Source: Chromatiales bacterium
GTDB taxonomy: Bacteria; Pseudomonadota; Gammaproteobacteria; Granulosicoccales; Granulosicoccaceae
DNA length: 56,632 nucleotides
Direction: 5' to 3'
Assembly: GCA_020631335.1 (NCBI GenBank)
Contig: JAHDHK010000003.1
Coordinates: 1 to 56,632 of the forward strand
This document shows positions 33,558 through 56,632 of the stretch, in pieces; the first letter of the stretch is position 1, and each line of letters begins with the position of its first letter. The position numbers and the translations under genes were made by a program. The notes beneath the pieces were generated by a model. It searched no databases, was not told the DNA's origin, and worked only from the letters and a program-made list of their open reading frames with translations.

Positions 33558-34865
33558 TTAACAGTCCATGGTGTTTTGACGCTCCCATTCACTCAGGTGC
33601 GCCGTATATTGACTCCATTCCTGCATTTTCAATTTGAGGTAGGCGTCGACCAGTTCGTCACCCAGCCCCTCGCGCAGTACTTTACTTTTTTCCATCAGTC
33701 GCAGCGCATCATGCAAAGTGGAAGGAAGTTGTTTTGCACCTTTCACTTTGTGTCCTTCTTCATACATATTCAGGTGTACGGGCTTACCCGGATCTTTTTT
33801 GTTGGCAATACCGTCGAGTCCTGCTGCAAGCACACCCGCCTGCATCAGATACGGATTTGCCGCACCGTCCATCAGGCGCAGCTCAAATCGACCGTCGTCA
33901 GGCACCCGAATCATGTGAGTGCGGTTATTACCGGAATAAGTCACAGCGTTAGGTGACCAGGTAGCTCCTGAAGAGGTTACCGGTGCACCAATGCGCTTGT
34001 AGCTGTTCACGGTCGGGTTGAATACTGCACACAGGGCAGTCGCACTGTCCATGACTCCACCTAAAAAGTGATACGCGGTTTGGGATAACCCCAGATCATC
34101 TTTTTTATTCAGGAACAGGTTCTTGCGACCCGCCTTGTCCCATAGTGATACATGCGCGTGACAACCATTCCCGGTTAAATTGGCAAAAGGCTTGGGCATA
34201 AAAGTCGCGCGCATTTCGTGATTTTCTGCAATGGTTTTTACCATGTACTTAAAAAACACATGCCGATCGGCAGTTTTCAACGCATCGTCATAATCCCAGT
34301 TCATCTCAAACTGACCGTTCGCATCTTCATGGTCGTTCTGATACGGACCCCAGCCCAGTTCAATCATGGCATCGCAGATTTCACTCACTACGGGATAGCG
34401 GCGCATAAGTGCCTGCTGGTCGTAACACGGTTTGGCCTGAGTATCATCAGCGTCGTAGATTGCCGAGCCCGACTTATTGATCAAAAAGTACTCACACTCA
34501 ACGCCGGTTTTCATCCGGTAGCCAAGCTTTTGGGCCTTCTCGAGTTGTCGCTTCAAAGCAACCCTGGGTGACGCCTCGACCTCGGCACCATCCATCCACA
34601 AGTCAGCTGCCACCCAGGCGACTTCAGGTTTCCAGGGCAGCTGAATGGCGCTGTCAGCATCAGGAATAGCAAACATATCCGGATGGGCAGGCGTCATATC
34701 CAGATACGATGCGAACCCGGCAAAACCCGCCCCCTCTGTCTGCATATCTTTGATCGCACGTGTCGGCACCAGCTTTGCGCGTAACACACCAAACAGATCG
34801 ACAAAGCTGATTAAAAAGTACTTTACCTTTTTCGTTTTAGCCCATTTTTCAAGATCTTTTGACAC
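33558..34865 (-). CDS. glnT: Type III glutamate-ammonia ligase-like (GlnT / gamma-glutamylmethylamide synthetase candidate)
   Basis: 435 aa; GVECEYFLI, GPYQNDHEDANGQFEMNW, GNGCHAHVSLWD, NPTVNSYKRIGAPVTSSGATWSPN, RFELRLMDGAANPYLMQAG. Confidence 0.85.
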   Translation of the reverse strand: MSKDLEKWAKTKKVKYFLISFVDLFGVLRAKLVPTRAIKDMQTEGAGFAGFASYLDMTPAHPDMFAIPDADSAIQLPWKPEVAWVAADLWMDGAEVEASPRVALKRQLEKAQKLGYRMKTGVECEYFLINKSGSAIYDADDTQAKPCYDQQALMRRYPVVSEICDAMIELGWGPYQNDHEDANGQFEMNWDYDDALKTADRHVFFKYMVKTIAENHEMRATFMPKPFANLTGNGCHAHVSLWDKAGRKNLFLNKKDDLGLSQTAYHFLGGVMDSATALCAVFNPTVNSYKRIGAPVTSSGATWSPNAVTYSGNNRTHMIRVPDDGRFELRLMDGAANPYLMQAGVLAAGLDGIANKKDPGKPVHLNMYEEGHKVKGAKQLPSTLHDALRLMEKSKVLREGLGDELVDAYLKLKMQEWSQYTAHLSEWERQNTMDC

Positions 34866-37306: not shown

Positions 37307-38641
37307 TTAGTAACGAGTCATGTCGGGACGACCGACAGTGTGTTGTGAACCGGCCAGTGGCACCTGCGCAAGCGCTGATGCTTCCATGGTCAGGGCAGCC
37401 AGATCTTCAGGCTCAAGGGAATGCATGTAAGTCTTACCACATGCCCGTGCAAGCAGCTGTGCTTCGATAGTTAATGTGTGCAGGAAGTTGTACACGCGCT
37501 CTGCTGCTGCATCGGGATCGAGTCGCGCACGGAGTTTGGGATCCTGTGTGGCAACCCCCACCGGACAGCGACCGGTATGGCAGTGGTAACAGTAACCGGC
37601 TTCGACGCCCATCTCGGTTGGAAAGTCTGCTTCGGGGATATCCTTGTTACAGTTGAGTGCCATCAGCGAAGAGTGACCGATAGCAACAGCATCTGCGCCT
37701 AGAGCAATCGCTTTGGCGAGATCACCACCGTTGCGGATACCACCGGCGTAAACCAGCGATACATCACCGGATTTGCCGACGTCATCGAGTGCTTTACGTG
37801 CCTGACGAATCGCGGCAATACCCGGCACACCGGTTTCCTCTGTGGCAATGTGTGGCCCGGCACCGGTACCACCTTCCATCCCGTCGATGTAAATGACATC
37901 GGGGTCGGTCTTCGCGGCCATTCGAACATCGTCATACACGCGTGCCGCACCCAGCTTAAGCTGAATCGGAATTTCCCAGTTAGTGGCCTCCCGGATTTCC
38001 TGAATTTTCAGCGCCAGGTCATCCGGCCCAAGCCAATCAGGATGGCGTGCCGGTGAACGCTGATCGATACCGGCAGGCAGCGAGCGCATTTCAGCGACCT
38101 GATCGGTGACCTTCTGCCCCATTAGGTGACCACCGAGGCCCACTTTACAGCCCTGTCCGATGAAGAACTCACAGGCATCGGCCAGACGAAGGTGGTGAGG
38201 ATTAAACCCGTAACGCGATTGAATGCACTGATAAAACCATTTTTCCGAATAACGCCGCTCATCGGGAATCATTCCACCTTCACCGGAACAGGTCGCCGTG
38301 CCGGCCATCGTGGCACCACGCGCCAGTGCAGTCTTCGCTTCATAGCTCAGCGCACCAAAACTCATTCCGGTGATGTATACAGGGATATCCAGTTCGAGCG
38401 GACGTTTTGCCCGCGGGCCCAGCACTGTTTTGGTGATACATTTTTCACGATACCCTTCGATCACGAATCGAGTCAGGGTACCGGGCAGAAAGGTAAGGTC
38501 ATCCCAGGACGGTATCTTTTTGAACAGCGAAAAACCGCGCATACGATAGCGGCCGAGTTCCGCTTTGATATGAATGTCATCTATGACATTCGGCGGAAAC
38601 ATAAAACTCTTACCGATTACATCTTTATTTCGTTCAGTCAT
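37307..38641 (-). CDS. mgsC: FMN-binding glutamate-synthase-family protein (N-methylglutamate synthase subunit C / GlxD-like)
   Basis: 444 aa; VYITGMSFGALSYEAKTALARGA, EGGTGAGPHIATEETGVPG, CYHCHTGRCPVGVATQDP. Confidence 0.88.
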   Translation of the reverse strand: MTERNKDVIGKSFMFPPNVIDDIHIKAELGRYRMRGFSLFKKIPSWDDLTFLPGTLTRFVIEGYREKCITKTVLGPRAKRPLELDIPVYITGMSFGALSYEAKTALARGATMAGTATCSGEGGMIPDERRYSEKWFYQCIQSRYGFNPHHLRLADACEFFIGQGCKVGLGGHLMGQKVTDQVAEMRSLPAGIDQRSPARHPDWLGPDDLALKIQEIREATNWEIPIQLKLGAARVYDDVRMAAKTDPDVIYIDGMEGGTGAGPHIATEETGVPGIAAIRQARKALDDVGKSGDVSLVYAGGIRNGGDLAKAIALGADAVAIGHSSLMALNCNKDIPEADFPTEMGVEAGYCYHCHTGRCPVGVATQDPKLRARLDPDAAAERVYNFLHTLTIEAQLLARACGKTYMHSLEPEDLAALTMEASALAQVPLAGSQHTVGRPDMTRY

Positions 38642-38664
38642 TATCTGTCCTCAACGTGTGCCGC

Positions 38665-39510
38665 TTACAGCACAAGTTTCTTTTCGGAAGGCTCGAGATT
38701 GTCGTAGTTCCACAATTGCTTGCCGGCTACGATCTTGGTCAGGTTCTTAACGCCATTGGGTGCTTTCATTCCATAAAGCGCCAGCTTGGTTTCAAGCCAT
38801 TGAGCCTCTACATCGTTGATTTCACCCTCGACTGCATCAACGCCGAGATCTTCAATCTTGCCGCCGACATAGATAGTGCCGTCATACATGGAGTCACCCA
38901 GGTTTTTACCGGCATCTCCTAGAATAATCATTCGGCCGCGCTGCATCATAAAGCCGGAAAACGCCCCTGCCCTGCCACCAACGATAATGGTGCCGCCTTT
39001 CTGATCGATACCGGTGCGAGACCCGACATCACCTTTACAGACCAGGTCACCGCCACGCATCGCAGCGCCGAAAGTAGAACCCGCATTTTTCTCGATCACA
39101 ATCGTGCCGGACATCATGTTTTCTGCGCATGACCAGCCGACGCGACCGGTGATATGGATATTAGGACCGTCGACAAGCCCACAGCCGAAGTAACCGAGAC
39201 TGCCTTCAAACTTCAGGTTCAGACGATTGAGAATACCGACACCTAAAGAATGTTTTGCACTGGGATTTTTGATGGTGATGGTGCCGTGACCCTCTTTCAT
39301 CAATTCGCGAATCTTAAGATTGATATCGCTGATTTCCATTGCAGCCGCATCGAACTCGGCCTCTTTGGCAAAGTCGACATCAATGGCATACGGATAGGTA
39401 AAGTTTTCATCTGCACTTGGAGAAAAGAAAACCTGCTGCGTACGTCCGGATAACTGCTCGGTGTGCATTCCGAGCTTATGTGACTCGTGGTCGGTATTTA
39501 GCTCTGCCAT
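38665..39510 (-). CDS. mgsB: GXGXG-domain protein (N-methylglutamate synthase subunit B / GlxC-like)
   Basis: 281 aa with repeated G-rich beta-helix of GltB C-terminus (GYFGCGLVDGPNIHITGRVGWSCAENMMSGTIVIEKNAG..); overlaps mgsA end. Confidence 0.85.
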   Translation of the reverse strand: MAELNTDHESHKLGMHTEQLSGRTQQVFFSPSADENFTYPYAIDVDFAKEAEFDAAAMEISDINLKIRELMKEGHGTITIKNPSAKHSLGVGILNRLNLKFEGSLGYFGCGLVDGPNIHITGRVGWSCAENMMSGTIVIEKNAGSTFGAAMRGGDLVCKGDVGSRTGIDQKGGTIIVGGRAGAFSGFMMQRGRMIILGDAGKNLGDSMYDGTIYVGGKIEDLGVDAVEGEINDVEAQWLETKLALYGMKAPNGVKNLTKIVAGKQLWNYDNLEPSEKKLVL

Positions 39511-40433
39511 ACCCGTACCTCCCCTTCGTAAGGATCAAATGTGTCTATTTCATGTGGGAATATGCTGCGTATCGCGACTTCTTCAGAAGCCAGTGCAATT
39601 AAATCGTCACTTTCATAAAGCACCATTGGCTTGGCCGCCATGACGTCTTTTGCCATACCCAGTGAATCTGCAGTGGCAACCAGGTAGGTGAATACACCAT
39701 CCAGCTCATCCACTGACCGGCTCATGGCCGTATGAAGATCATCGCCTCTTTCTATACGATTAGCGATGTACACTGCGATCAGTTCAGAGTCGCAGTCAGA
39801 CATGAATCGATGTCCCCGCCGTTCAAGATCGCGGCGGTTGGTCCAGTAATTGGTGAGCTGACCATTGTGGACAACCGAGACGTCATTAAACGGATAAGCC
39901 CAGTACGGATGCGCAGAGCGTATATCAACGTCTGATTCAGTCGCCATACGCGTATGACCGATCGCATGGGTGCCGTCAAATCCACTGAGGCTGTACTGAT
40001 TGGAAACTACGGTCGCGTCTCCCAGGTCCTTGATCAGCTCCAATGCATGGCCGATGGACAGCACCTCTACACCATCGACGTCTTCAACATAGTCGATAAC
40101 ACGCTTGAGATCGCCATCAAAGGCAATCCTGTAGCGCAGGGCATATTCGGTGGCCTGCTCCTTTGACGTAATGCTGACCCCCATCTCTTCGAGACGCGAG
40201 TCCACAGTTGCCTGACGATCTTTGATCGCATGCTGTATGTCAAAGCCAGTCGCGAGGTCTTCCTGCTCAGCCACCTTAAAGCGCATGACATAGTCCTGGT
40301 TTTTGCCAGAACCATACAGAGCAAAACCGGTCGAGTCCGGGCCTCTGTGTTTTAGTGCCTGCAACATCGATGTCATTTGTGAACCGATATCAGCACTGTT
40401 ACCACGATGTATTAGTCCGGCGATGCCGCACAT
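39498..40433 (-). CDS. mgsA: Class II glutamine amidotransferase (N-methylglutamate synthase subunit A / GlxB-like)
   Basis: True start at 40433 exposes catalytic MCGIAGLIHRG; GHTRMATESDVDIRSAHPYW; VVHNGQLTNY. Confidence 0.87.
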   Translation of the reverse strand: MCGIAGLIHRGNSADIGSQMTSMLQALKHRGPDSTGFALYGSGKNQDYVMRFKVAEQEDLATGFDIQHAIKDRQATVDSRLEEMGVSITSKEQATEYALRYRIAFDGDLKRVIDYVEDVDGVEVLSIGHALELIKDLGDATVVSNQYSLSGFDGTHAIGHTRMATESDVDIRSAHPYWAYPFNDVSVVHNGQLTNYWTNRRDLERRGHRFMSDCDSELIAVYIANRIERGDDLHTAMSRSVDELDGVFTYLVATADSLGMAKDVMAAKPMVLYESDDLIALASEEVAIRSIFPHEIDTFDPYEGEVRVWQS

Positions 40434-40451
40434 GGCATACCCCCTTTCATG

Positions 40452-40492
40452 TAAAAAAAACCAGAAAACGCCGGTGTATTTCGACACCGGCG
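40452..40492 (-). terminator. Rho-independent terminator/attenuator between GS-like gene and mgsA
   Basis: Minus strand CGCCGGTGT-CGAAAT-ACACCGGCG then TTTTCTGGTTTTTTTT. Confidence 0.85.
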
Positions 40493-40532
40493 GTTCGTTC
40501 AAAGCATCTACTGCTTTATGGCATCAACCAGG

Positions 40533-42008
40533 TTATGGCAGACAATCCATATAAGTGTCGGTGTCCCAGTCGGTCACGGTAGCCATAAAGTTTTCCCACT
40601 CATCGCGCTTGTAGTGACTGAATACCTTCCACATTTCATCGGGCATTGCATCTCTGATCACATCGTCAGCCTCGAGTGCATCCAGCGCTTCTCCGAGAGA
40701 CATAGGTAGTTTCTTGACCTCTTTACCTGCATCCATTGCTGCGTAGATGTTGCGCTCTTCAGGGTCACCCGGATCGATTTTGTTGTTAATGCCATCTTCA
40801 AACGCGGCCAGTATGGTTGAACCCATCAGATACGGATTAACCATGGAATCTACCGAACGGAATTCAAAGCGTCCCGGTGCTGATACGCGCATTCCTGTGG
40901 TTCGGTTCTGAAAGCCCCAGTCAGCGAATACCGGCGCCCAGAAACCGGTGTCCCAAAGTCTTCTGTATGAATTGACAGTAGAGCATCCAATAGCCGTGAG
41001 TGCATTGATATGCTTCATAGTACCGCCAATGGAATACAGCCCTATTTTGCCCGGCATGTGAGATGTTTTCTTGTCGGGCATAAAAGTATTAGTGCCACCG
41101 TCGCGGTAGCTGAACACACCCGGCATACCGGGCAGATCAGTCTGTTTTTCAAACATGATTTTATTGACCACATCTTTACCGCCTTTCCACAACGACGTGT
41201 TGTGGTGACACCCGGACGCCGACACGCCCATAAACGGCTTGGTCATAAAACACGCAATCAGATTAAATTCACGCGCAACCTGCGCACAGATTTGCCGGTA
41301 TGTCGACAAACGGTCGGCGTTTCGAAGCACCGTGTCGTAAGTCCAGTTGAGCTCCAGCTGGCCGGGTGCATCTTCGTGGTCTCCCTGAATCATGTCGAGT
41401 CCCATCGCCTGGGAATACTCAAGCACCTTCATAAACACAGGGCGCAATGATTCGAACTGATCAATGTGGTAGCAATAGGGGTTCGAGTAGCCGCCATCCG
41501 GCTTGCCATCTTCACCTTTCTTCAGCCACATCATTTCGGGTTCGGTGCCGACCCGCAGTTCCATTTTGTGTTTCTTCTGGAACGCCTCATGTTGAAACAA
41601 CAGATTGCCGCGGCAGTCCGAAGTCAGATGCCCGCCCGGATTTACTTTCTCTTCACGGTTGCGGAAACATACGCAGTAAACCCTGGCGATGCGTTTGTCC
41701 CAGGGGAGCTGACAGAAAGTTTCGGGATCGGGAATACCGACAAGCTCAGATGCTTCGGGACCGTAGCCGATGTAATCGCCGGCGCGGTCGGTAAACAGGT
41801 TCGCCGTAGCACCGTAGACCAGCTGAAAGCCTTTTTCTGCGGTGCGCTCCCAGTGGTTGGCAGGAATACCCTTCCCGACAATACGTCCGGTAACGGAAAT
41901 GAACTGGTAGTAGATGTAGGTGATGCCAAGCTGTTTTATTTTCTTGCGCACTTCCGCAATCTGTTTGTCACGACCCGGTGCATTGACGTATTTCTCGAGA
42001 TCTGTCAT
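40533..42008 (-). CDS. Glutamine synthetase family protein (second paralogue in cluster)
   Basis: MTDLEKYVNAPGRDKQI start at 42008 with GGGGGA upstream; GTEPEMMWL, IQGDHEDAPGQLELNWTYD, SASGCHHNTSLWKGG, RFEFRSVDSMVNPYLMGS. Confidence 0.85.
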   Translation of the reverse strand: MTDLEKYVNAPGRDKQIAEVRKKIKQLGITYIYYQFISVTGRIVGKGIPANHWERTAEKGFQLVYGATANLFTDRAGDYIGYGPEASELVGIPDPETFCQLPWDKRIARVYCVCFRNREEKVNPGGHLTSDCRGNLLFQHEAFQKKHKMELRVGTEPEMMWLKKGEDGKPDGGYSNPYCYHIDQFESLRPVFMKVLEYSQAMGLDMIQGDHEDAPGQLELNWTYDTVLRNADRLSTYRQICAQVAREFNLIACFMTKPFMGVSASGCHHNTSLWKGGKDVVNKIMFEKQTDLPGMPGVFSYRDGGTNTFMPDKKTSHMPGKIGLYSIGGTMKHINALTAIGCSTVNSYRRLWDTGFWAPVFADWGFQNRTTGMRVSAPGRFEFRSVDSMVNPYLMGSTILAAFEDGINNKIDPGDPEERNIYAAMDAGKEVKKLPMSLGEALDALEADDVIRDAMPDEMWKVFSHYKRDEWENFMATVTDWDTDTYMDCLP

Positions 42009-42279
42009 CGATTCCCCCTTACAGGATTTAACGGTGTCCGCGCTTGCGAACCATTCATGCGTTGTCGGTAAAAACACACTGGCCGTAACAGGTATCAGAT
42101 AGACAACTCTCGACCAATTGTGTACCTTTTGCGCCCAATACTATAACCTTGTTTGCCTGCGTTTCGCCATCACGAAATATTACAAATTTCCGTTTTTCCT
42201 GTTCAAAACACGCCTTTACGGCAAGAATTGTTGTTTCCAACACCAAAACGGTTTAGCGTATGGATCAAGCTCGATGTGT

Positions 42280-42344: not shown

Positions 42345-43040
42345 ATGAGTGACACTTCATCTTCCCCCCCTATCGGGGATGCAAGCAGCCTGTCAGCAGT
42401 GCTGCGTCGGAAAATTTTAAGCGGGGAATACCGGCACGACGAACGCCTGCCGGCGGAGCGCTCTCTCGCTACTCAATTCGGCTGTTCACGCGGCACTGTA
42501 CGCTCTGCAATGGAAAAGCTCGAAGAGCTGAATCTGATCCAGCGTCGCATTGGCAGCGGCACATTTGTGAACCACAGACTGTCTGCTGACGAATCCGAAA
42601 TTGCCAACCTCACCAGCCCGCTGGAACTCATTGACGTCAGACGCGGCATGGAACCACAGATAGCCAGGCTTGCCGTCATGCACGCCACCGCATTGCATAT
42701 TGATAAACTGGCTCAGGCGCTGGAAAAAGTAGAGCAAACCGAAACCGAAGGGCCGGAAACCTTCACCAGCGCCGATCAGGCGTTTCACCTGACACTGGCC
42801 GAGTGCACTGACAATTCACTGATGTTCTGGTTATGTCAGCACATACACGATGTTCGATCCCATCGGCAGTGGAGTGCAATGAAAGATAAAATTCTCGGCC
42901 CCGCACAGATTCGAAAATATAACCAACAGCATCGCGAGATTTTCGAAGCGATTGTCAGCCGCGATGTAGAAGCCGCTGCTCAGGCAAGCATCGCACACCT
43001 GGAAACTGCACGGACCGATCTGATGGGTGTTGCACCATGA
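42345..43040 (+). CDS. GntR family regulator, FadR subfamily
   Basis: N-terminal wHTH (LSGEYRHDERLPAERSLATQFGCSRGTVRSAMEKLEELNLIQRRIGSGTFV) plus FCD-like C-terminal domain. Confidence 0.93.
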   Translation: MSDTSSSPPIGDASSLSAVLRRKILSGEYRHDERLPAERSLATQFGCSRGTVRSAMEKLEELNLIQRRIGSGTFVNHRLSADESEIANLTSPLELIDVRRGMEPQIARLAVMHATALHIDKLAQALEKVEQTETEGPETFTSADQAFHLTLAECTDNSLMFWLCQHIHDVRSHRQWSAMKDKILGPAQIRKYNQQHREIFEAIVSRDVEAAAQASIAHLETARTDLMGVAP

Positions 43041-45412
43041 CTGTACTGCATGGGCTGCCATCAAATATTAACCCGATACCTTTAAGGTCCGGTGTTTTGA
43101 CACCCGGGATACCCACGCTACCCCACGGGCTCGAAAGACATACAATAAAAGGTGGTGGTCTTATTGTGCTGTCTCTCGATACGGGCGACCGGATAGAGAT
43201 TATAGATCCACAGGGCCTGCAGCCATGCTCGATTGCCGTGCTCGACGACAGTGGTCATCACAAACCTGAACTACTTAGCGACTTAACGCACAACGCTACA
43301 ACAGATAACCAGACCATAGCCTCTATGCTGGCGGGCGCGGGCAATGAAAAAATCACAGGCAAACTGCAGCAACGCGGCATTGGTGCAAAACAAATAAAGT
43401 CCAGCCGGGTCATGGAAGGTGAAACGCCTGCCGGTCATCGTATAAGCGCCAGTGCACAGGCCGGTGCCACCTGCATAATTGCAGCACCTGCTGAGCCGAT
43501 GCTGGCGCACGAGCAACTTCCCCCCACTGAACTGCTGTGCTACGTCACTCGCGCCAACCCCGCAGCGCATAGCAATAACGAATTGCCGGAACCGCTGGGT
43601 GAAATGTTACTTGACCTGCGGGTGGACAAATGCACTTCGCGCACTTACACCGTCAAGGCTGGAGAGTACATCCAGATCATTGATGTGGAAGGACGCGAGT
43701 GCAGCGACTTTCAGTGTTTCGATCTGGCTAAACTCGAAGCCGGTATAGAGCGATGCCTCGATGCCACCACAACACGCACACTCATGGCCAGTGCCTACCC
43801 GCAACCCGGGTTACACGCTAAATTCTATGATCAGGATATGCAGGCCATGGTGCAGGTGATACAGGACACCTGTGGTCGTCACGACTCTTTTGGACTGGCC
43901 TGCACCGCAAAATACTATGACGATGCCGGTTATCCGGGCCATATCAACTGCTCGGATAATTTTAATTACGCACTGGCACCGTTTGAAATACAACCACGTG
44001 CCGGCTGGATGGCAATGAATTTTTTCTTTAACACCGCCGTCGATGACACCAACCAGATGCTGGGTGACGAACCATGGTCACGACCGGGTGACTATGTGTT
44101 GCTCAAAGCGCTGAAAGACCTGGTTTGCATATCATCTGCCTGTCCGGATGATATCGACCCTGCCAACGGATGGAACCCGACCGACATACATGTTCGCGTC
44201 TACCCCGCCGACTATGATTTCACAACTGCCGTGGCCTACAGAATGACTGCCGATGCCGACCCGCACCTGACAAAAGAAACTGCATTTCATACCCGCACTT
44301 CAGCACTGACCAGCAACTACACCGAATACAACGGATACTGGCTGGCTAATCGCTATAACAACCATGGCCCCATAGACGAGTACTGGGCGTGCAGACAAGG
44401 CGTAATTGTCACCGACCTGTCGCCGTTGAGAAAATACGAAGTACTCGGGCCGGACGCTGAAAAACTCTTGCAATACTGCGTTACCCGGGACGTTAAAAAG
44501 CTCTCACCGGGGCAAGTCGTCTACACCGCCATGTGTTACGACAATGGCGGCATGATCGACGACGGCACAGTGTTTCGAATGTGTGAAACCAATTTCCGCT
44601 GGATCGGTGGCTCAGACTACAGCGGACTATGGCTGCGCGAGAAAGCACAGGAACTGGGACTCAACTGCTGGGTAAAATCTTCAACCGATCAATTGCACAA
44701 TCTTCAGGTACAGGGCCCGAAAAGCCGCGAGGTATTAAGCAAAATCATCTGGACTCGTCCCGATCAGACCCCGCTTGATGAACTGGCCTGGTTTCGCTTT
44801 TCAGTAGCTCGACTTGAACAGGAGCATGGCGTTCCACTGCTGGTATCGAGAACCGGCTACACCGGCGAACTGGGCTATGAAGTGTTTTGCCACCCTAAAG
44901 ACGGTGAAGCGGTCTGGGATGCCATTATGGAAGCCGGAAAAGAACACAAAATCACCCCGCTTGGTCTGGAAGCACTCGATATGCTGCGCATTGAGGCCGG
45001 GCTGATATTTGCCAATTACGAGTTTACCGATGAAACCGACCCGTTCGAGGCGGGCATCTCTTTTACGGTGCCTTTAAAAAGTAAATCAGATGACTTTATC
45101 GGCCGCGAGGCGCTGTTAAGACGCAAGGAACACCCGATGAATAAACTGGTCGGCCTCGAACTCGCCGGTGACGAACTGGCCGCTCATGGTGACTGCGTGC
45201 ATATCGGTCGACAGCAAATCGGCGTGATTACCAGCGGCACCAAATCACCGACATTATCAAAGAACATAGCACTGTGCCGAATAGCGGTTGATCACAGCGC
45301 TCCCGGCACTGCGGTTGAAATCGGCCAGCTTGACGGACACCAAAAACGACTTCAGGCAACCGTGATCAGCTATCCGTTCTACGATCCGGACAAATCACGC
45401 GTTCGCATGTAA
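43037..45412 (+). CDS. tdm: DUF1989-GcvT fusion, trimethylamine N-oxide demethylase (Tdm)-like
   Basis: 791 aa; DUF1989 region (AGEYIQIIDVEGRECSDFQCFDL... GLACTAKYYDDAGYPGHINCSDNFNYAL) then aminomethyltransferase domain (PLRKYEVLGPDAEKLLQYCVTRDVKKL..., SRTGYTGELGYEVF); next to tmm. Confidence 0.85.
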   Translation: MTVLHGLPSNINPIPLRSGVLTPGIPTLPHGLERHTIKGGGLIVLSLDTGDRIEIIDPQGLQPCSIAVLDDSGHHKPELLSDLTHNATTDNQTIASMLAGAGNEKITGKLQQRGIGAKQIKSSRVMEGETPAGHRISASAQAGATCIIAAPAEPMLAHEQLPPTELLCYVTRANPAAHSNNELPEPLGEMLLDLRVDKCTSRTYTVKAGEYIQIIDVEGRECSDFQCFDLAKLEAGIERCLDATTTRTLMASAYPQPGLHAKFYDQDMQAMVQVIQDTCGRHDSFGLACTAKYYDDAGYPGHINCSDNFNYALAPFEIQPRAGWMAMNFFFNTAVDDTNQMLGDEPWSRPGDYVLLKALKDLVCISSACPDDIDPANGWNPTDIHVRVYPADYDFTTAVAYRMTADADPHLTKETAFHTRTSALTSNYTEYNGYWLANRYNNHGPIDEYWACRQGVIVTDLSPLRKYEVLGPDAEKLLQYCVTRDVKKLSPGQVVYTAMCYDNGGMIDDGTVFRMCETNFRWIGGSDYSGLWLREKAQELGLNCWVKSSTDQLHNLQVQGPKSREVLSKIIWTRPDQTPLDELAWFRFSVARLEQEHGVPLLVSRTGYTGELGYEVFCHPKDGEAVWDAIMEAGKEHKITPLGLEALDMLRIEAGLIFANYEFTDETDPFEAGISFTVPLKSKSDDFIGREALLRRKEHPMNKLVGLELAGDELAAHGDCVHIGRQQIGVITSGTKSPTLSKNIALCRIAVDHSAPGTAVEIGQLDGHQKRLQATVISYPFYDPDKSRVRM

Positions 45413-45630: not shown

Positions 45631-46773
45631 GTGGGAAATTCCGACCTCATACAACTGCAACAGGGTGACTCACCGTTCAGCACTCACGCTGAAAAATCAT
45701 TTACGCTGCCCGCAAGGTTTTATCTCGACGAGGACATTTACCGTCGCGAAATGAAAGCCATTTTCGAGCGCAGCTGGTGGTATGCCGGGCACGCGAGTCA
45801 GGTTGCTCGAACAGGTGAGTATCTCACCACGACCATCGATCAACAGAGCATTTTCGTAGTGCGCGGACGCGACAACAACCTGCGCGCCTTTTATAACGTG
45901 TGCCAGCATCGTGGCCACGAACTCGTCGCAGGCTCAGGCAAGGCCAATCTGATTGTCTGCCCTTACCATGCCTGGTCTTATGATCTTGACGGCAGCCTGG
46001 TCGGCGCGCGCAACACCGAAAACATGGCAGGTTTTAACAAGTGCGAATTCGCTTTGAAACCCGTGCAGGCAGAAGTGTTTTGCGGCATGGTGTTTATCAA
46101 CCTCGATATGACAGCAAGCTCCCTGTCACAACAGACCGGCAATCTTGAAAATGAAATCCGGCAGTACTGCCCCGATGTGGATAATCTGGCATTCGCTCAG
46201 CGCGACACATACCACGTGGCAAGTAACTGGAAAGTGATGATGGACAACTTCCTCGAGTGCTACCACTGCCATACCGCACACAAAGACTTTGTCGATCTGG
46301 TCGACATGAAGAGCTACCGCTCAACTGTCCATGGCATCTATTCCAGCCATATTTCCAACGCGGCCAATTCGACAGACAACTCCGCCTACAGCTTTGAAAA
46401 AGGCGATGTCGATTTCGGTTATGCCGGCTGGTTTCTCTGGCCCAACCTGACCTTATGGGCTTATCCGGGTGAAGCCAATCTGTCAGTGCTGCAGATGATC
46501 CCTGACGGTGTGGAAAAAACCATCGAGTATCAGGACTGGTTTGTACCCGACGGCAGAGTCAGCGCACAATTAGCTGAGGCAATGGACTATCAGAAGATCA
46601 CGCTGCAACCTGAAGACATCGGCCTGTGCGAGAGCGTTCAGCGCGGACTCAAATCCAACGGCTACAACCAGGGCCGTTTTGTGGTTGATAGCGAACGAAG
46701 CGAACTATCAGAACACGCAGTGCATCATTTTCAGAGAATGGTCGCAGATGCGCTTGGTGCTGAACTCAGCTAG
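45631..46773 (+). CDS. Rieske non-heme iron oxygenase alpha subunit, quaternary-amine (GbcA/Stc2/CntA) type
   Basis: CQHRGHELVAGSGKANLIVCPYHAWSYDL Rieske motif; NWKVMMDNFLECYHCHTAH mononuclear iron site. Confidence 0.88.
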   Translation: MGNSDLIQLQQGDSPFSTHAEKSFTLPARFYLDEDIYRREMKAIFERSWWYAGHASQVARTGEYLTTTIDQQSIFVVRGRDNNLRAFYNVCQHRGHELVAGSGKANLIVCPYHAWSYDLDGSLVGARNTENMAGFNKCEFALKPVQAEVFCGMVFINLDMTASSLSQQTGNLENEIRQYCPDVDNLAFAQRDTYHVASNWKVMMDNFLECYHCHTAHKDFVDLVDMKSYRSTVHGIYSSHISNAANSTDNSAYSFEKGDVDFGYAGWFLWPNLTLWAYPGEANLSVLQMIPDGVEKTIEYQDWFVPDGRVSAQLAEAMDYQKITLQPEDIGLCESVQRGLKSNGYNQGRFVVDSERSELSEHAVHHFQRMVADALGAELS

Positions 46774-46910: not shown

Positions 46911-48251
46911 ATGTCCAAACGCGTCGCCATCATCGGTGCCGGCCCCTGCGGTACCGCCGCACTGAGAGCTTTTCAATCCGCCAGAAAAAACGGGGAAGAC
47001 ATCCCCGAAATTGTATGCTTTGAAAAGCAGGCTGACTGGGGCGGCTTGTGGAATTATGACTGGCGCACCGGCCTGGACGAATACGGAGAGCCCGTTCACG
47101 GATCAATGTATCGCTACCTCTGGTCCAACGGTCCGAAAGAATGCCTCGAATTCGCAGACTACTCATTCGATGAACACTTCGGCAAACCTATTGCGAGTTT
47201 TCCACCACGGGAAGTGCTGGCCGACTACATCAAAGGGCGCGTCGAAAAAGCCGGCGTGCGGGAATGGTGCCGGTTCCGACACCCGGTACGCAATGTCGAA
47301 TACAACGAAGCTGCAGGCAACTTCACTGTCACTGCACACGACCTTATCAACGACAAAAGAGTCGTGGAAACCTTTGACAACGTGATCGTTGCCACCGGAC
47401 ATTTCTCCACCCCGAACGTGCCCTACTTTGAAGGCATGGACAAATTCGAAGGGCGCGTACTGCACGCTCACGACTTCCGCGATGCACTCGAATTCAAAGG
47501 TAAAGATGTCATGGTGGTCGGTGCCAGTTACTCCGCTGAAGATATCGGTTCGCAGTGCTGGAAATACGGCGCAAAGTCACTCACCGCCTGCTACCGCACC
47601 TCGCCCATGGGATTTCACTGGCCCGACAACTGGGAAACCAAGCCGCTGCTGACCAAAGTCGAAGGCAAAACCTGCCATTTTAAAGACGGCACCAGTAAAG
47701 AGATAGACGCCATTATTCTGTGCACCGGATACCTGCATCATTTTCCGTTTATGGACGACGACCTGCGGCTGATCACGACCAACCGCATGTGGACGCCTGA
47801 CCTTTACCAGGGCGTTGCATTCGAACCGAACCCGAAGGTGATGTACCTCGGTATGCAGGATCAGTTCTACACATTTAACATGTTTGATGCACAAGCCTGG
47901 TGGGCGCGTGATGTGATCATGGGCAAAATCGACACACCGTCTAATGCCGATATGAAAACCCATTCGGACAAATGGCTTGCGCGCGAAGCCACACTGGAAA
48001 CCGACGAAGACATGATCTGGTTCCAGGGTGACTACACGCAGGAGCTCATCGATCAAACCGACTACCCGACGTTTGATATAGAAGGGGTCAACCAGGCTTT
48101 TATGGACTGGGAACACCACAAACACGACGATATCATGGGCTTCCGCGACAAGGCGCATGCATCGCTGATTACCAAAACCCAGTCGCCGGCGCACCACACT
48201 CCATGGGTCGAAGCCATGGACGATTCAATGGAGGCCTATCTGAAAAGCTAG
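46911..48251 (+). CDS. tmm: Flavin-containing trimethylamine monooxygenase
   Basis: 446 aa; [74 protein letters not shown] closely resembles marine Tmm; FATGY-like [12 protein letters not shown]. Confidence 0.93.
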
Positions 48252-48531: not shown

Positions 48532-51387
48532 GTGCGTGTGACCAGCTATTCTGACACTCTCCAGCGCGGCGATACCATCAGCTGTTACCAGATCGAAGAG
48601 GTCCTGGGGCGCGGCGGTTTTGCTGTCACCTACCTTGCTGTAGACCTCAATCTTGATGTGCACGTAGCCATCAAGGAATACCTGCCGGGTGAAATAATTC
48701 AGCGCGATGCCCAGCTGAACGTGGCTGCACGGCGGCCCGAATTTGTTGAAGACTACAACATAGGGCTGAATAATTTTGCCCGTGAAGCCAAAACCCTTGC
48801 CAGATTCAAACACCTGAATATCGTCAGGGTTCACCAGGTTATCCACAAGTTTAATACCGCCTACATGGTGATGGACTACGAGCACGGCAGAGAACTTGCC
48901 GATGTGCTGGCGGAACACAAAACCCTGTCCGAAGACGAACTGCAGGAAGTGCTGTTTCCGATTTTCGACGGTGTTGAAGAAATACACCGCCACGGACTTG
49001 CCCATCGCGATATCAAACCATCAAACATCTACCTGCGAGACAACGGCTCTCCGGTGTTGCTCGATTTCGGCGCAGCGCGATATACATTAAGTGAGTCAAC
49101 GCAACAGCTTACGGCTGTCGTCACCGTCGGCTATACCCCGATCGAACAATACAACGTATCCGAAAACGAACAGGGCCCGTGGACCGATATCTACGCGCTT
49201 GCTGCGGTGTTGTACGAAGCCGTTACCGGCGAAATGCCGGTAGACTCGGTCACCCGGGCGTCCAGTCGGGTCACTAACTCCACCGACCCTCTGTCACCGG
49301 TTGCCAACAAGGCACGCAACGCCTACTCCGATGATTTTTTAAAAGCCATCGACTGGGGTCTGAGTATGGAAGCCGAAGACAGACCACAAAGCATTGCACA
49401 ATGGCGTGACGCCTTTAAAGGCGTGTACAAGCCGGTGGAATATTATCAGGATCAGCAGCAAAAGAGACCGGTGCGTAAATCGCGACTCAAAACCCGCGCA
49501 AAAGAACCGGTCGCTGCACTGGCGACGGAAACCACGCAGGCATACGCCCCTCAACCGGAATACGAAACCGCCACAGAGTCATCGTTTTCCGTCGACATGC
49601 GCGAGACCGGCTTTGCTGATGACTTCGACGACGTTGAAATCGTGCCGCTCAACCCGGATGCAGAGCCTGCGCTGCCGCGTGAACGGCTCGAACCTGCTGT
49701 TGCCGCCACATACAGTGATGCCACTGCCACGCTTGCCCCGCCACCCGCACCGGCCAGCCCGTTTGCGAGCAATCCTTCGCCAAAGTTGCCACCGGCACCT
49801 CAACCGGAAAACCAGGAACTCAACGATACGCTCAACAATCTGATCGATGCAGAGGGCAGACCAAAACATACACAGCAACTGCGCAAGGTGCTGAGACGCG
49901 ATATCGTCAAGCGTGAGCACGCACCCGCCGAACCGGTAAAAGTTGCGCCGCAGCCCGAACCCTACCGCGCCCCCACCGTGGCCAAAAGTCCGCTCGAAGC
50001 CGAGCCGGCCATCAGCGCCGAACGCTATGACGAGCGGAGATACCAGCGCGATCACGACACGCCGTCACCGGCACGGCAGCGATTTGAAGACGACTTTGAC
50101 TTTGACGATACCGACTGGGACTACGAGCCACCGCCGGGGCCTTCCCGATGGAAGTGGATTTTTCCGGTGCTCGGACTCGCGCTGATTGCCGGCGCCTCTA
50201 TTTTGTTTGTCAACAAGCCCGAGCTGTTCAAACTGCCTTCGCAGACAGTCCCGGAACTCACAGTCGCTACTGCACTGGAAAATGCCAATGAGAAAATTCA
50301 GAATCGCGAACTGATATTTCCCGAAGGTCAATCCGCGCTCGATTACTTCCAGCTTATTCTGCAAAGCGAACCCGACAATGCTGAAGCGCTGGGTGGCGTT
50401 GCAGCAATTCGCGATGAAATCAAAAAACAAATCGTCGAACATGTCGACGACAACAACCTCGCCGAAGCGAACCGGCTGTTGTCCAGAGCAAAAGCTGCCA
50501 ACCTGCAAATTGACGATACGACAGATTCAGGCGTCGCCGGCGGCGACAACCAGATAGTTGCCATTGACACTACCGCATCTCCATGGGTAAACCAGAGAGT
50601 TGAAGACATCGAAGGTCTACTCGCCGTCGGAGACTATGCCGGTGCCCGGCAGTTGTATGCTGAAGTCGATAAATACATTGCCAACGCAGAAGTTTCCGAC
50701 TCTATCCGACAACGCATCGAGCGCGGTTTGCAGCAAGCACAACCTGCCACGCAGGACTCACCGACAACCGACGCGATCGCCACACCGATAGATACCTCAC
50801 CGATAGTTGCAGAAGTCGACAACCCGGCAATTGAATCGCTCTCTGATACGCCTGTGCAATCCGATGTACCCGCGAACAATGGCACTGAAACAGATACCGC
50901 CAATGCTGTGGTTGTTGATACAGACCCGGTCGTGACGTTAACACCGGTGGCGACCCCGGCATCGCTGGCCGAACCGCAAGCACCGGTCGTATCTGAAACC
51001 GAACAGAAAATTGCGGTGGAAGACGATGAAGCGACCCTGCCCTCTGCGCCTCGCAGAAGTTTTATAGAGGGCAACGATGCCACTGCCCAGCATCTCAACC
51101 AGTTGCGCCTGGCACTGGAAGACAAGAATCTGCAGCGAGTCCTGCAGGTGAGCGGCACGCTGCCCGAAGAACGCACAGAATTTCTGCGCCGACTATTTCA
51201 ACGCTACGACCGTCTTGATGTGACGATTGACAATATCAATCGTACCGGCAGCAACGCCCGGGCAAAGTTGAGCGTTGCAATGTTCAATCAGCGCTCAGAC
51301 GGCAGCTTTTACTCGGCAGGCAAATGGAGCGATGTCGAACTTGCGACGACCCGACAAAACGGTCAATGGCAGCCGATACGCTGGTAG
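48532..51387 (+). CDS. Membrane-anchored serine/threonine protein kinase with extracytoplasmic C-terminus
   Basis: 951 aa; YQIEEVLGRGGFAVTYLAVD, VAIKEYLP, HRDIKPSNIYL, LLDFGAARY; single TM WKWIFPVLGLALIAGASILFV; GTG start. Confidence 0.9.
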   Translation: MRVTSYSDTLQRGDTISCYQIEEVLGRGGFAVTYLAVDLNLDVHVAIKEYLPGEIIQRDAQLNVAARRPEFVEDYNIGLNNFAREAKTLARFKHLNIVRVHQVIHKFNTAYMVMDYEHGRELADVLAEHKTLSEDELQEVLFPIFDGVEEIHRHGLAHRDIKPSNIYLRDNGSPVLLDFGAARYTLSESTQQLTAVVTVGYTPIEQYNVSENEQGPWTDIYALAAVLYEAVTGEMPVDSVTRASSRVTNSTDPLSPVANKARNAYSDDFLKAIDWGLSMEAEDRPQSIAQWRDAFKGVYKPVEYYQDQQQKRPVRKSRLKTRAKEPVAALATETTQAYAPQPEYETATESSFSVDMRETGFADDFDDVEIVPLNPDAEPALPRERLEPAVAATYSDATATLAPPPAPASPFASNPSPKLPPAPQPENQELNDTLNNLIDAEGRPKHTQQLRKVLRRDIVKREHAPAEPVKVAPQPEPYRAPTVAKSPLEAEPAISAERYDERRYQRDHDTPSPARQRFEDDFDFDDTDWDYEPPPGPSRWKWIFPVLGLALIAGASILFVNKPELFKLPSQTVPELTVATALENANEKIQNRELIFPEGQSALDYFQLILQSEPDNAEALGGVAAIRDEIKKQIVEHVDDNNLAEANRLLSRAKAANLQIDDTTDSGVAGGDNQIVAIDTTASPWVNQRVEDIEGLLAVGDYAGARQLYAEVDKYIANAEVSDSIRQRIERGLQQAQPATQDSPTTDAIATPIDTSPIVAEVDNPAIESLSDTPVQSDVPANNGTETDTANAVVVDTDPVVTLTPVATPASLAEPQAPVVSETEQKIAVEDDEATLPSAPRRSFIEGNDATAQHLNQLRLALEDKNLQRVLQVSGTLPEERTEFLRRLFQRYDRLDVTIDNINRTGSNARAKLSVAMFNQRSDGSFYSAGKWSDVELATTRQNGQWQPIRW

Positions 51388-53777: not shown

Positions 53778-54914
53778 ATGGACTTAAGCAGCAACGTCAG
53801 CGAATCAGAATTTGTCGTCGTTGGCGGCGGCGTGGTCGGCAATTGTATTGCGATGGGCCTCGCGGCTAAGGGCAAGTCCGTCGCATTGTTTGACGAGGCG
53901 GACAACGCATTCAGGGCATCACGCGGGAACTTCGGGCTGGTCTGGGTTCAGGGCAAAGGTGCGGCAATGCCAACCTACGCCAGATGGACCCGTGCATCCG
54001 CACACCTGTGGAAAGACTTTGCTGATGAACTGACACAATCCACCGGAATTAGTGTTTCTTTAACCCAACGCGGTGGATACAGCATTTTTCTCGACGAAGC
54101 ATCATTGCATCAGCGTGCTGGTGTGTATGAGCAATTGAAAAATGCGCTCGGTGGTGATTACCCGTTTGAAGTGCTGGGCCACAACGCGATTAAAAAAGAA
54201 GAGCCACAAATTGGATCGCAAGTGGCAGGCGCCATACTTCATCATGAAGACGGACATATCAACCCGCTGAACTTTTACCGTGCGATTACCAATGCAACCG
54301 GCAGACTGGGTGTTACTAAAATCACGCGGCGAGTCAGCAAAGTTGCACCGGCTGCAAATGGTTTTATCATTCACAGCGATAATGCCGGCAGTCACCATTG
54401 CTCCAAAGTGATACTGGCGTGCGGTCTGGGTACAGCAGAGCTGGGGCGACCACTTGGTTTTAAAGTTCCGGTTCGACCACAGCGTGGCCAGGTCCTTATT
54501 ACCGAGAAACTACCACCACTTATCAACCGACCTTCAGATGAAATCCGACAGGTTAATGAAGGGGGCATTCAGATTGGTGCCTCAGCTGAAGAAGTTGGCT
54601 TTGACGATAGCGAAACTATCGAAACGACAGCGCAACTCGCCGCCAACGCGATCAGACAGTATCCTTTCCTCGAGAAAGCTCAGCTTGTCAGAAGCTGGGG
54701 CGCATTGCGTATTATGTCGCAGGATGGATTTCCGATTTATCAACAATCGACTTTATATCCAGGCGCCTACTACGCCACCTGCCATAGTGGCATCACACTG
54801 GCGGCAGCACATGCCAGACTACTACCGGACTGGCTGTGTGGTGACAACAGCACCATAGCGAAGCAAGGTATCGCATTTAGTGAATTCAGTGAAGGGCGAT
54901 TCAATGACAGCTGA
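53778..54914 (+). CDS. FAD-dependent oxidoreductase, DAO/HcnC family
   Basis: 378 aa; FVVVGGGVVGNCIAMGLAAKGKSVALFDE, RASRGNFGLVWVQGKG, VPVRPQRGQVLITE. Confidence 0.88.
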   Translation: MDLSSNVSESEFVVVGGGVVGNCIAMGLAAKGKSVALFDEADNAFRASRGNFGLVWVQGKGAAMPTYARWTRASAHLWKDFADELTQSTGISVSLTQRGGYSIFLDEASLHQRAGVYEQLKNALGGDYPFEVLGHNAIKKEEPQIGSQVAGAILHHEDGHINPLNFYRAITNATGRLGVTKITRRVSKVAPAANGFIIHSDNAGSHHCSKVILACGLGTAELGRPLGFKVPVRPQRGQVLITEKLPPLINRPSDEIRQVNEGGIQIGASAEEVGFDDSETIETTAQLAANAIRQYPFLEKAQLVRSWGALRIMSQDGFPIYQQSTLYPGAYYATCHSGITLAAAHARLLPDWLCGDNSTIAKQGIAFSEFSEGRFNDS

Positions 54915-55188
54915 CACGACCATTGGTGACGGTATGTTTGTGTTTAGCTTCAACGGCGCGCCGGTTACCGCCAACACAGGAGATACGGTCGCCGCAGCAC
55001 TGATATCAAACGGTATTCATATAACACGTACCACTGCAAAAGGATCACCGCGAGGACCGTTTTGTATGATGGGTGCCTGCTACGATTGCCTGATAGAACT
55101 CGATGGAGTAACACTGCAGGCATGTATGCTCACAGCAACACCCGATATGCAAATACGCAGCGCTGTATCAACCGAAACTGACGAGTAG
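54904..55188 (+). CDS. (2Fe-2S)-binding protein, HcnA/sarcosine-oxidase-like small subunit
   Basis: ATGA overlap with upstream stop; FSFNGAPVTANTGDTVAAALISNG, GPFCMMGACYDCLIELDG. Confidence 0.88.
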   Translation: MTADTTIGDGMFVFSFNGAPVTANTGDTVAAALISNGIHITRTTAKGSPRGPFCMMGACYDCLIELDGVTLQACMLTATPDMQIRSAVSTETDE

Positions 55189-55301
55189 ACACCACTGCAT
55201 CACTATCCATCCTCCGACACAGCGACTGAGTTCAAGGCTGATGACCGAACGCATACACCATCAATACGCTGAACAGACAGACATACCAGGTAACCCGACC
55301 A

Positions 55302-56632
55302 GTGGCTGATCCGGATATCATTGTCATTGGCAGCGGCCCTGCGGGTATGTCAGCAGCCATTACCGCAGCCCGGCATGGCGCAACCGTCTGTATGATTGAC
55401 GAACAACCCGATGCCGGCGGGCAGATTTACAGAGGCCTTACCCGTTGCACCGACGCACAAGCCAGCCGGCTGGGAAAAGAATACGTTTACGGTAAAACGC
55501 TTCTATCTCAGATCAATCACCGCAACATCAGTCGTGTATACAGTGCCACTGTCTGGTCAATAGAAGCACCGGGCACCGTAACGTACAGCCGGCACGGCCA
55601 TGCCAGTCAAATCTCTGCTGGCTGTGTGATCATTGCCACCGGAGCCCTGGAAAGATCATACCCTGTTCCCGGCTGGACAAAACCCGGCGTAATGACGGTT
55701 GGTGCAGCGCAAATTCTGTTAAAGACCAGCAGCTTTATTTGCAATGACGCTATACTGGCCGGCACAGGTCCGTTGCTATATGCAGTGGCCAGTCAAATAC
55801 TCACCGCCGGCGGGAACATCACTGCCCTTGTCGACACCGTTAGCCCGACGCACTATCGCAATGCAGCCCGGTACTTTCCGTATACCAGTATTGCAACGCT
55901 TACTACCGGACTGAAGTACCTGCGCACTATAAAACAAGCAGGTATCCCTCATTATAAAAACGCCGGGCACCTGAGCATCACCGGCAATGAATACGCCGAT
56001 GGCCTTAACTTTACGGTAAACGGAGTTGAACACCATATACCGGCAGAGAAAATTCTTTTACACCAGGGGGTCGTGCCCAATGTACAGCTGAGTCGAGCTA
56101 TCGGGATAGATCATCAATGGCACCCGCTGCAAAGATGTTTTCATCCGGTGATTGATCAGTGGGGAGCGAGCTCAATTGCAACTATTCGATTAGCAGGTGA
56201 TGGATGCGGTATCGGAGGAGCATTGATCGCCGAGCACCAGGGTACACTCACTGCACTGGGTGCGTTGTCAGAAATCGGCTTCATAGATAACAAAAAGCGT
56301 AACACCATTGCTGCTAAGCCACTGCGATCAATCAACGGCATGTCTAAGCTCCGGCGTTTTCTGGATACGCTCTATAGCCCGCCTTCGCATTGCTTTCTCC
56401 CGGTCGACGATACCATTGTCTGTCGATGCGAAGAGGTCACTGCCGGCGAGATTCGTGCAGTCGCAGCACTTGGCTGCGCCGGTCCGAATCAGGCAAAAGC
56501 ATTTTGTCGCAGTGGCATGGGGCCGTGCCAGGGCAGATACTGCGGTAATCTGGTCACTGAGATTATGGCTGACCGGCACCAGCTCACTCATGATGAAATC
56601 GGCTACTACCGGCTTCGCTCCCCGATTAAGCC
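55302..56632 (+). CDS. FAD/NAD(P)-dependent oxidoreductase, HcnB-like; truncated at window end
   Basis: GTG start; VADPDIIVIGSGPAGMSAAITAARHGATVCMIDEQPDAGGQIYR; in-frame to C-terminal CRCEEVTAGEIRAVAALGCAGPNQAKAFCRSGMGPCQGRYC; no stop before the edge (absent from the ORF track). Confidence 0.88.
   Translation, partial: MADPDIIVIGSGPAGMSAAITAARHGATVCMIDEQPDAGGQIYRGLTRCTDAQASRLGKEYVYGKTLLSQINHRNISRVYSATVWSIEAPGTVTYSRHGHASQISAGCVIIATGALERSYPVPGWTKPGVMTVGAAQILLKTSSFICNDAILAGTGPLLYAVASQILTAGGNITALVDTVSPTHYRNAARYFPYTSIATLTTGLKYLRTIKQAGIPHYKNAGHLSITGNEYADGLNFTVNGVEHHIPAEKILLHQGVVPNVQLSRAIGIDHQWHPLQRCFHPVIDQWGASSIATIRLAGDGCGIGGALIAEHQGTLTALGALSEIGFIDNKKRNTIAAKPLRSINGMSKLRRFLDTLYSPPSHCFLPVDDTIVCRCEEVTAGEIRAVAALGCAGPNQAKAFCRSGMGPCQGRYCGNLVTEIMADRHQLTHDEIGYYRLRSPIK

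Follow-up and report, generated by a model that had tools for sequence, protein, structure and literature searches.

The window analysed here is a stretch of 56,632 nucleotides from a metagenome-assembled genome of the Granulosicoccaceae. On its forward strand, a GntR/FCD-family regulator gene (42345–43040; Pfam GntR and FCD matches) stands directly 5' of tdm, which encodes the TMAO demethylase (43037–45412; DUF1989 and GCV_T domains; NCBIfam 1214.6 bits, cut-off 1100). The gene for a CntA-like (group Va) Rieske non-haem iron oxygenase, the proposed oxygenase component of a DMA monooxygenase, follows at 45631–46773, and tmm, encoding trimethylamine monooxygenase, lies beyond it at 46911–48251 (NCBIfam 817 bits, cut-off 675). 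The first-pass annotation, which placed the Rieske gene between tdm and tmm on the same strand, was thus correct, with all three genes on the forward strand and both neighbours above their NCBIfam cut-offs. A long serine/threonine-kinase-like gene (48532–51387, forward strand) comes after tmm and is also found near tmm in five other genomes (G008, G009, G010, G011 and G017). A second full-length Tdm-like protein, 46% identical to that of the window, is encoded elsewhere in the host genome (G000:C74, 51511–53748), and many family members have a similar one.

Genes for later steps of the pathway are grouped with an ammonium transporter gene upstream, on the strand opposite to the Rieske gene. 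They comprise gmaS (33558–34865), encoding the γ-glutamylmethylamide synthetase of the next pathway step, for which Rhodovulum GmaS is the top match in the PDB (7cql, 614 bits; PMC7948447), and mgsABC-type N-methylglutamate synthase genes (37307–40502, consisting of 37307–38641, 38665–39510 and 39498–40502), which match glutamate-synthase, FwdC-like and class II amidotransferase families and are assigned to Mgs by context. The mgsABC-type genes are adjoined by a second, divergent glutamine-synthetase-like gene on the same reverse strand (40533–42077), additional to gmaS, the 513-residue product of which reaches 302 bits with the type III model, for which the cut-off is 470; genes of the same type occur in the G015, G017 and G174 clusters. 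No Rieske-type reductase is present among the window proteins, as had been noted at first pass: the Fer2_4 and Pyr_redox/BFD proteins encoded at 54880–56630 come after, and belong with, a DAO-family oxidoreductase, and the whole set (53778–56630, forward strand), which reaches the contig end, looks like a three-component FAD dehydrogenase. Neither a LysR gene nor a GcvT-like gene adjoins the Rieske gene in the window itself.

The Rieske ORF is intact, with a GTG start preceded by AAAGAGAAC and no internal stops, and encodes 380 residues with matches to the Pfam families Rieske (70 bits, cut-off 20.3) and Ring_hydroxyl_A (101 bits, cut-off 24.9). Orthologues at 61–81% identity are present in 16 other aligned genomes and were matched in further ones, and the gene is therefore not a chance ORF. 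The Rieske motif C-x-H...C-x2-H, recognized correctly at first pass, provides the [2Fe-2S] ligands Cys91 and His93 (45901–45909) and Cys110 and His113 (45958–45969). The iron-site string quoted there is also accurate (N199-WKVMMDNFLECYHC); the site comprises the bridging Glu209, the Cys210/Cys213 pair and the iron ligands His212 and His217 (all within 46249–46281, together with Phe207), with Asp329 (46615–46617) as the third ligand. The Rieske and iron-site ligands are unchanged across 17 aligned orthologues, and a C-x-H...C-x2-H motif is combined with a 2-His-1-carboxylate site in one α subunit, as in Rieske non-haem oxygenases.

The best PDB sequence match of the protein is carnitine monooxygenase CntA (286 bits over the full length, ∼35% identity). 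Residue mapping to CntA places Glu205 at Glu209, Cys206/Cys209 at Cys210/Cys213, and His208, His213 and Asp323 at His212, His217 and Asp329. An AlphaFold2 model built from 47 relatives has a pLDDT of 94.6 and a pTM of 0.91 (against a pLDDT of 70 with 17 close orthologues alone), and the top 13 Foldseek matches to it are all CntA, with TM scores of 0.85–0.89, followed by stachydrine demethylase. Group V Rieske enzymes are divided at residue 203 (CntA numbering) into group Va, with an aromatic residue (CntA, choline monooxygenase and OxyBAC), and group Vb, with asparagine (GbcA and Stc2), and the CntA Y203F mutant is active (PMC7948474). Phe207 occupies this position and assigns the protein to group Va; the bridging glutamate, the cysteine pair and the phenylalanine are present in 38 of 38 orthologues. 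Membership of group Vb is excluded by the same residue, and identity with GbcA additionally by a score of 179.8 bits against a cut-off of 670 for the NCBIfam equivalog NF058607. The original label of a quaternary-amine-type oxygenase therefore holds as regards a CntA-like group V enzyme and fails as regards GbcA; the glutamate of the ECYHC segment, which had been read as a mark of the GbcA/Stc2/CntA branch, is indeed present, but it is common to all of group V, and Phe207 points to Va. In a maximum-likelihood tree that includes the CntA/YeaW relatives, the orthologues form their own supported clade of 38 rows (SH-aLRT 96). The separate clade and a different set of pocket residues argue against CntA proper, and we regard the protein as a CntA-type oxygenase whose substrate and part in the pathway are probably new.

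Most of the carnitine contacts of CntA are replaced, even though the predicted structure has the CntA fold and the π-cation aromatic is retained as Phe207. Asn270 is replaced by Trp276 (46456–46458), Tyr295 by Gln301, Tyr315 by Gln321 and Phe319 by Leu325, with frequencies in the orthologue clade of 38/38, 35/38, 35/38 and 38/38, respectively. The CntA clade retains Asn270, Tyr295 and Phe319 in 7/7 and Tyr315 in 6/7, while Tyr225 of CntA is kept in all. Tryptophan in place of the carnitine-contacting asparagine suggests a shorter substrate, as far as a residue comparison can indicate. Two roles had been proposed for the protein at first pass: demethylation of DMA, or the supply of TMA or DMA to the pathway from a quaternary amine. 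The latter role, in which a CntA-like enzyme cleaves choline, betaine, carnitine or a similar compound to give TMA for Tmm and Tdm, would agree with the retained π-cation aromatic and with the release of TMA from carnitine by the nearest solved relative, CntA, but the changes at Asn270, Tyr295 and Tyr315 speak against it, and we consider it rather unlikely.

The absence of a dmm step, noted at first pass, holds genome-wide within the 93.5% complete host MAG. A search for dmmDABC elsewhere in this genome found no match to PF11927, the HODM α-subunit domain of DmmA, which argues against a hidden DmmA. With the Dmm reductase subunit as a query, the host gave no more than a 25% fragment match, and G009 and G126 gave none at E ≤ 1e-10. 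Neither the window nor the annotated surroundings of linked orthologues showed a recognizable dedicated CntB-type reductase; linkage to a reductase is usual in group Va, but not essential.

The occurrence of the gene was surveyed in 57 genomes, the host and its relatives. An orthologue (at least 61% identity; one is a fragment) is found in 18 Granulosicoccaceae genomes, PF11927/DmmA in ten others of the family and both in none. Each PF11927 locus that was inspected proved to be a true dmm operon, in the order GcvT-like DmmD, PF22290/22289 subunit, Fer2 reductase and HODM α, and several of these form one cluster with tmm, tdm, mgs and gmaS. Tmm or Tdm is present in 28 genomes, which divide into 16 with the Rieske gene, ten with DmmA, two with neither (G015 and G017) and none with both (Fisher p = 5e-6, a value inflated by kinship). 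Within one genus, the Rieske gene occurs in two species and DmmA in nine, and the four that lack Tmm/Tdm have neither (p = 0.018). No Tmm was detectable in two of the family carriers (G012 and G022).

A similar pattern is seen in a second class, from which 298 Rhodobacteraceae-group genomes (the family of Roseovarius aestuarii; many are MAGs) were sampled evenly. The Rieske orthologue is present in seven of them, Tmm in 67 (22%) and DmmA in 43. Tmm accompanies the orthologue in all seven carriers (p = 2e-5) and DmmA in a single one (G353), although DmmA is present in 41 of the 67 Tmm-positive genomes; the latter comprise one genome with both systems, six with the Rieske gene only, 40 with DmmA only and 20 with neither (p = 0.012). 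R. aestuarii, in which DmmA was likewise not found, is an isolate, and the G174 contig, of 4.37 Mb and nearly a whole genome, has no DmmA. The two within-clade exclusion tests combined give p = 0.002, a modest value limited by kinship. The 20 of 67 genomes with neither DmmA nor a Rieske orthologue leave room for other solutions or true dead ends.

A scan of 84,980 species, from which the 80 best loci were retained, so that close relatives of the host may be missing, gave at least 19 matches at 50% identity or more among these loci; by this measure the orthologue is rare among sequenced species. Tmm is present in 13 of 16 further scan genomes and a genuine DmmDABC in one (G067), which together with G353 has both systems. 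The apparent DmmA of the carriers G059, G062 and G063 proved to be remote paralogues, at 23–31% identity to true DmmA, and the PF11927 match of G061 does not align to DmmA at all. Carriers without detectable Tmm beyond the family are G057 and, more remotely, G070 and G071. A plasmid scan gave 33 records, which are relatives and not orthologues since all are below 60% identity.

One explanation of this distribution is fortuitous: an unrelated Rieske oxygenase would share marine hosts with Tmm, and the DmmA pattern would arise from kinship and incomplete genomes. The two genomes with both systems and the carriers without Tmm are in its favour, as is the position of most host-genus copies outside the tmm/tdm cluster. 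Incompleteness alone, however, would not account for the missing DmmA in 16 of 16 carriers, for which the probability would be 1.5e-18 on the assumption of independence; the pattern repeats in the second class, including the 4.37 Mb contig of G174, and linkage to tmm, tdm or tmo is seen in several lineages. We consider a fortuitous association quite improbable. Taken together, the co-occurrence survey (0/18 family carriers with PF11927; 6/7 Rhodobacteraceae-group carriers without DmmA) favours the DMA option.

The gene neighbourhoods of the orthologues vary. The most extensive cluster is that of G174, where ∼20 kb contain the glutamine-synthetase-like gene, mgsABC, an amino-acid permease, Tmm, a TmoXVW-type ABC transporter, Tdm, a divergent LysR and the Rieske gene. 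The order in G011 is GntR–Tdm–TmoXVW–LysR–Rieske–TmoX-like–Tmm–GcvT-like. In G031 and G033 a Rieske–GcvT-like pair adjoins TmoXVW (with LysR also in G031), Roseovarius and relatives have LysR–Rieske–GcvT-like, and Rieske–GcvT-like pairs are also found in G182 and G353. The Rieske gene adjoins Tmm in G002, G008, G009 and a Bacteroidota-labelled contig (L141). On the last, a 4.2-kb contig labelled Lewinella, the Tmm is at 67% and the Rieske orthologue, next to it, at 63% identity; the gene pair has been transferred widely or the contig misbinned. Universal synteny was rejected, as most host-genus genomes have the orthologue away from tmm/tdm; the anticipated tdm–Rieske linkage in other genomes is seen in several lineages, in the form of tmm/tdm/tmo linkage, but is not general. 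The GcvT-like protein linked to the Rieske gene is 29% identical to DmmD and is a functional parallel of it, not an orthologue; its pairing with the Rieske gene resembles that of DmmD with DmmABC.

The binding protein linked in G011 scores 298 bits to 4xz6, the PDB title of which is glycine betaine/proline-binding protein and which we take to be R. pomeroyi TmoX; the copies in G002, G031 and G033 are 89–91% identical to that of G011. A TmoX-type transporter beside the gene in some genomes and the near-universal company of Tmm could be expected of an enzyme that feeds TMA into the pathway, but the linked protein resembles the TMAO-binding TmoX, and such a feeder leaves the avoidance of DmmA unexplained. 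The linkage to tmm, tdm and tmo would be compatible with any methylamine substrate, and another small amine might thus be involved, either in a bypass of TMA/TMAO demethylation or as tetramethylammonium, with DMA handled by an unrecognized enzyme such as a DMA dehydrogenase. We give this little credence: the same clusters encode intact Tmm and Tdm, which already deal with TMA and TMAO, DMA to MMA is the sole gap in the pathway, and the exclusion is specifically with DmmA.

A different kind of locus is seen in a large clade at 44–50% identity that includes a host paralogue (46%; G000:C161, L050, 3464–4597) beside choline sulfatase, SDR and BKACE genes. This locus is a carnitine/choline-type operon common to Roseobacter plasmids; plasmid relatives in Ruegeria sp. 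THAF33 and Rhodobacteraceae M382 have the same choline-sulfatase and SDR setting, and a BKACE gene is present in two of the three loci read. That the relatives in choline-sulfatase/BKACE operons form a separate clade counts against a quaternary-amine feeder at the tmm/tdm locus. A further host paralogue (L052; G000:C199, 27201–28308), beside an ABC ATPase gene, extends over two reading frames and is a frameshifted pseudogene or an assembly error.

Demethylation of DMA is the better supported of the two original proposals, because it explains both the company of Tmm and the avoidance of DmmA, which a TMA feeder has no reason to avoid. DMA to MMA is the only pathway gap in carriers with intact Tmm and Tdm, and the Tmm company, the absence of DmmA, the G174 cluster, the GcvT-like pairs, the changed pocket, the complete iron site and the CntA fold all support this reading. 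Against it stand the two genomes with both systems (G067 and G353), the carriers without Tmm (G012, G022 and G057), the general frequency of DmmA lack (20/67 with neither), the position of the gene away from tmm/tdm in most of the host genus, the lack of a reductase match in the search with the Dmm subunit and the action of characterized group Va enzymes on quaternary amines, CntA itself being inactive towards 4-(dimethylamino)butyric acid (PMC7948474). On this sequence-based evidence, the protein is probably the oxygenase of a CntA-type monooxygenase that converts DMA to MMA and formaldehyde, a non-orthologous replacement of the haem-dependent DmmABC. More broadly, a horizontally spread group Va Rieske enzyme seems, on balance, to serve as an alternative DMA monooxygenase in marine alpha- and gammaproteobacteria, replacing DmmABC and paired in many lineages with LysR and a GcvT-like folate-type protein.

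The proposed reaction would correspond to the C-hydroxylation and C—N cleavage of CntA on a minimal substrate. The Rieske cluster would receive electrons from a ferredoxin or an NAD(P)H reductase encoded at another locus, and an electron would pass the subunit interface via Glu209 to the iron held by His212, His217 and Asp329, where O2 would be activated. Dimethylammonium would be held against Phe207 in a pocket narrowed by Trp276, and one methyl group would be hydroxylated to a carbinolamine that collapses to MMA and formaldehyde. The formaldehyde would be caught on tetrahydrofolate, in many genomes probably via the adjacent GcvT-like protein, and MMA would proceed through GmaS and MgsABC.

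Lidbury et al. (2017; PMC5520151) described a DMA bottleneck: many marine bacteria have tmm, tdm and gmaS without dmmDABC, from which they concluded that DMA may build up and be lost to the atmosphere. If the DMA reading is true, some genomes without dmmDABC have a complete pathway, dmmA alone is an inadequate marker of DMA use, a second DMA enzyme that can be cloned is at hand, and CntA-type chemistry, so far one of quaternary amines, takes in a small secondary amine as well. Because the gene is rare and nothing places it in SAR11, it closes at best a part of the DMA gap. Among the open-access journal papers searched, none describes a Rieske enzyme that demethylates DMA. To our knowledge, the protein would be without precedent as a CntA-type enzyme with a secondary amine as its substrate, and likewise as a non-haem enzyme of the DMA step in the aerobic TMA/TMAO oxidation pathway.

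The known system closest in proposed function is DmmABC(D) of Ruegeria pomeroyi (SPO1579–1582; PMC5520151), with which the Rieske protein would share the reaction and the pathway position, as well as the company of Tmm, Tdm, Tmo, Mgs and GmaS and, in many genomes, a GcvT-domain partner; DmmD of R. pomeroyi, which has a folate-binding domain, is thought to capture the formaldehyde from DMA oxidation (PMC5520151). The two differ in composition: a PF11927 haem protein with PF22290/22289 and Fer2 reductase subunits in Dmm, and a Rieske centre with non-haem iron here. CntA (PDB 6y8j and 6y9d; the YeaW-type enterobacterial enzymes) has the same iron ligands, bridging glutamate, cysteine pair and aromatic at position 203, which is tyrosine in CntA and phenylalanine in the Rieske protein, as in OxyBAC; unlike CntA, to which it is only ∼35% identical, the protein belongs to a separate clade, and its gene sits with tmm/tdm and has no linked reductase. 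The glycine betaine monooxygenase GbcA and the stachydrine demethylase Stc2 share the group V Rieske architecture and oxidative N-demethylation as the proposed chemistry, but have asparagine in place of Phe207, and the fold match to them is weaker than that to CntA. The choline-sulfatase-linked clade is alike in its 44–50% identity, its phenylalanine at position 203 and its cysteine pair, and differs in its GlxA regulator, betC-like sulfatase and SDR genes and in having methionine or leucine, not tryptophan, at position 270.
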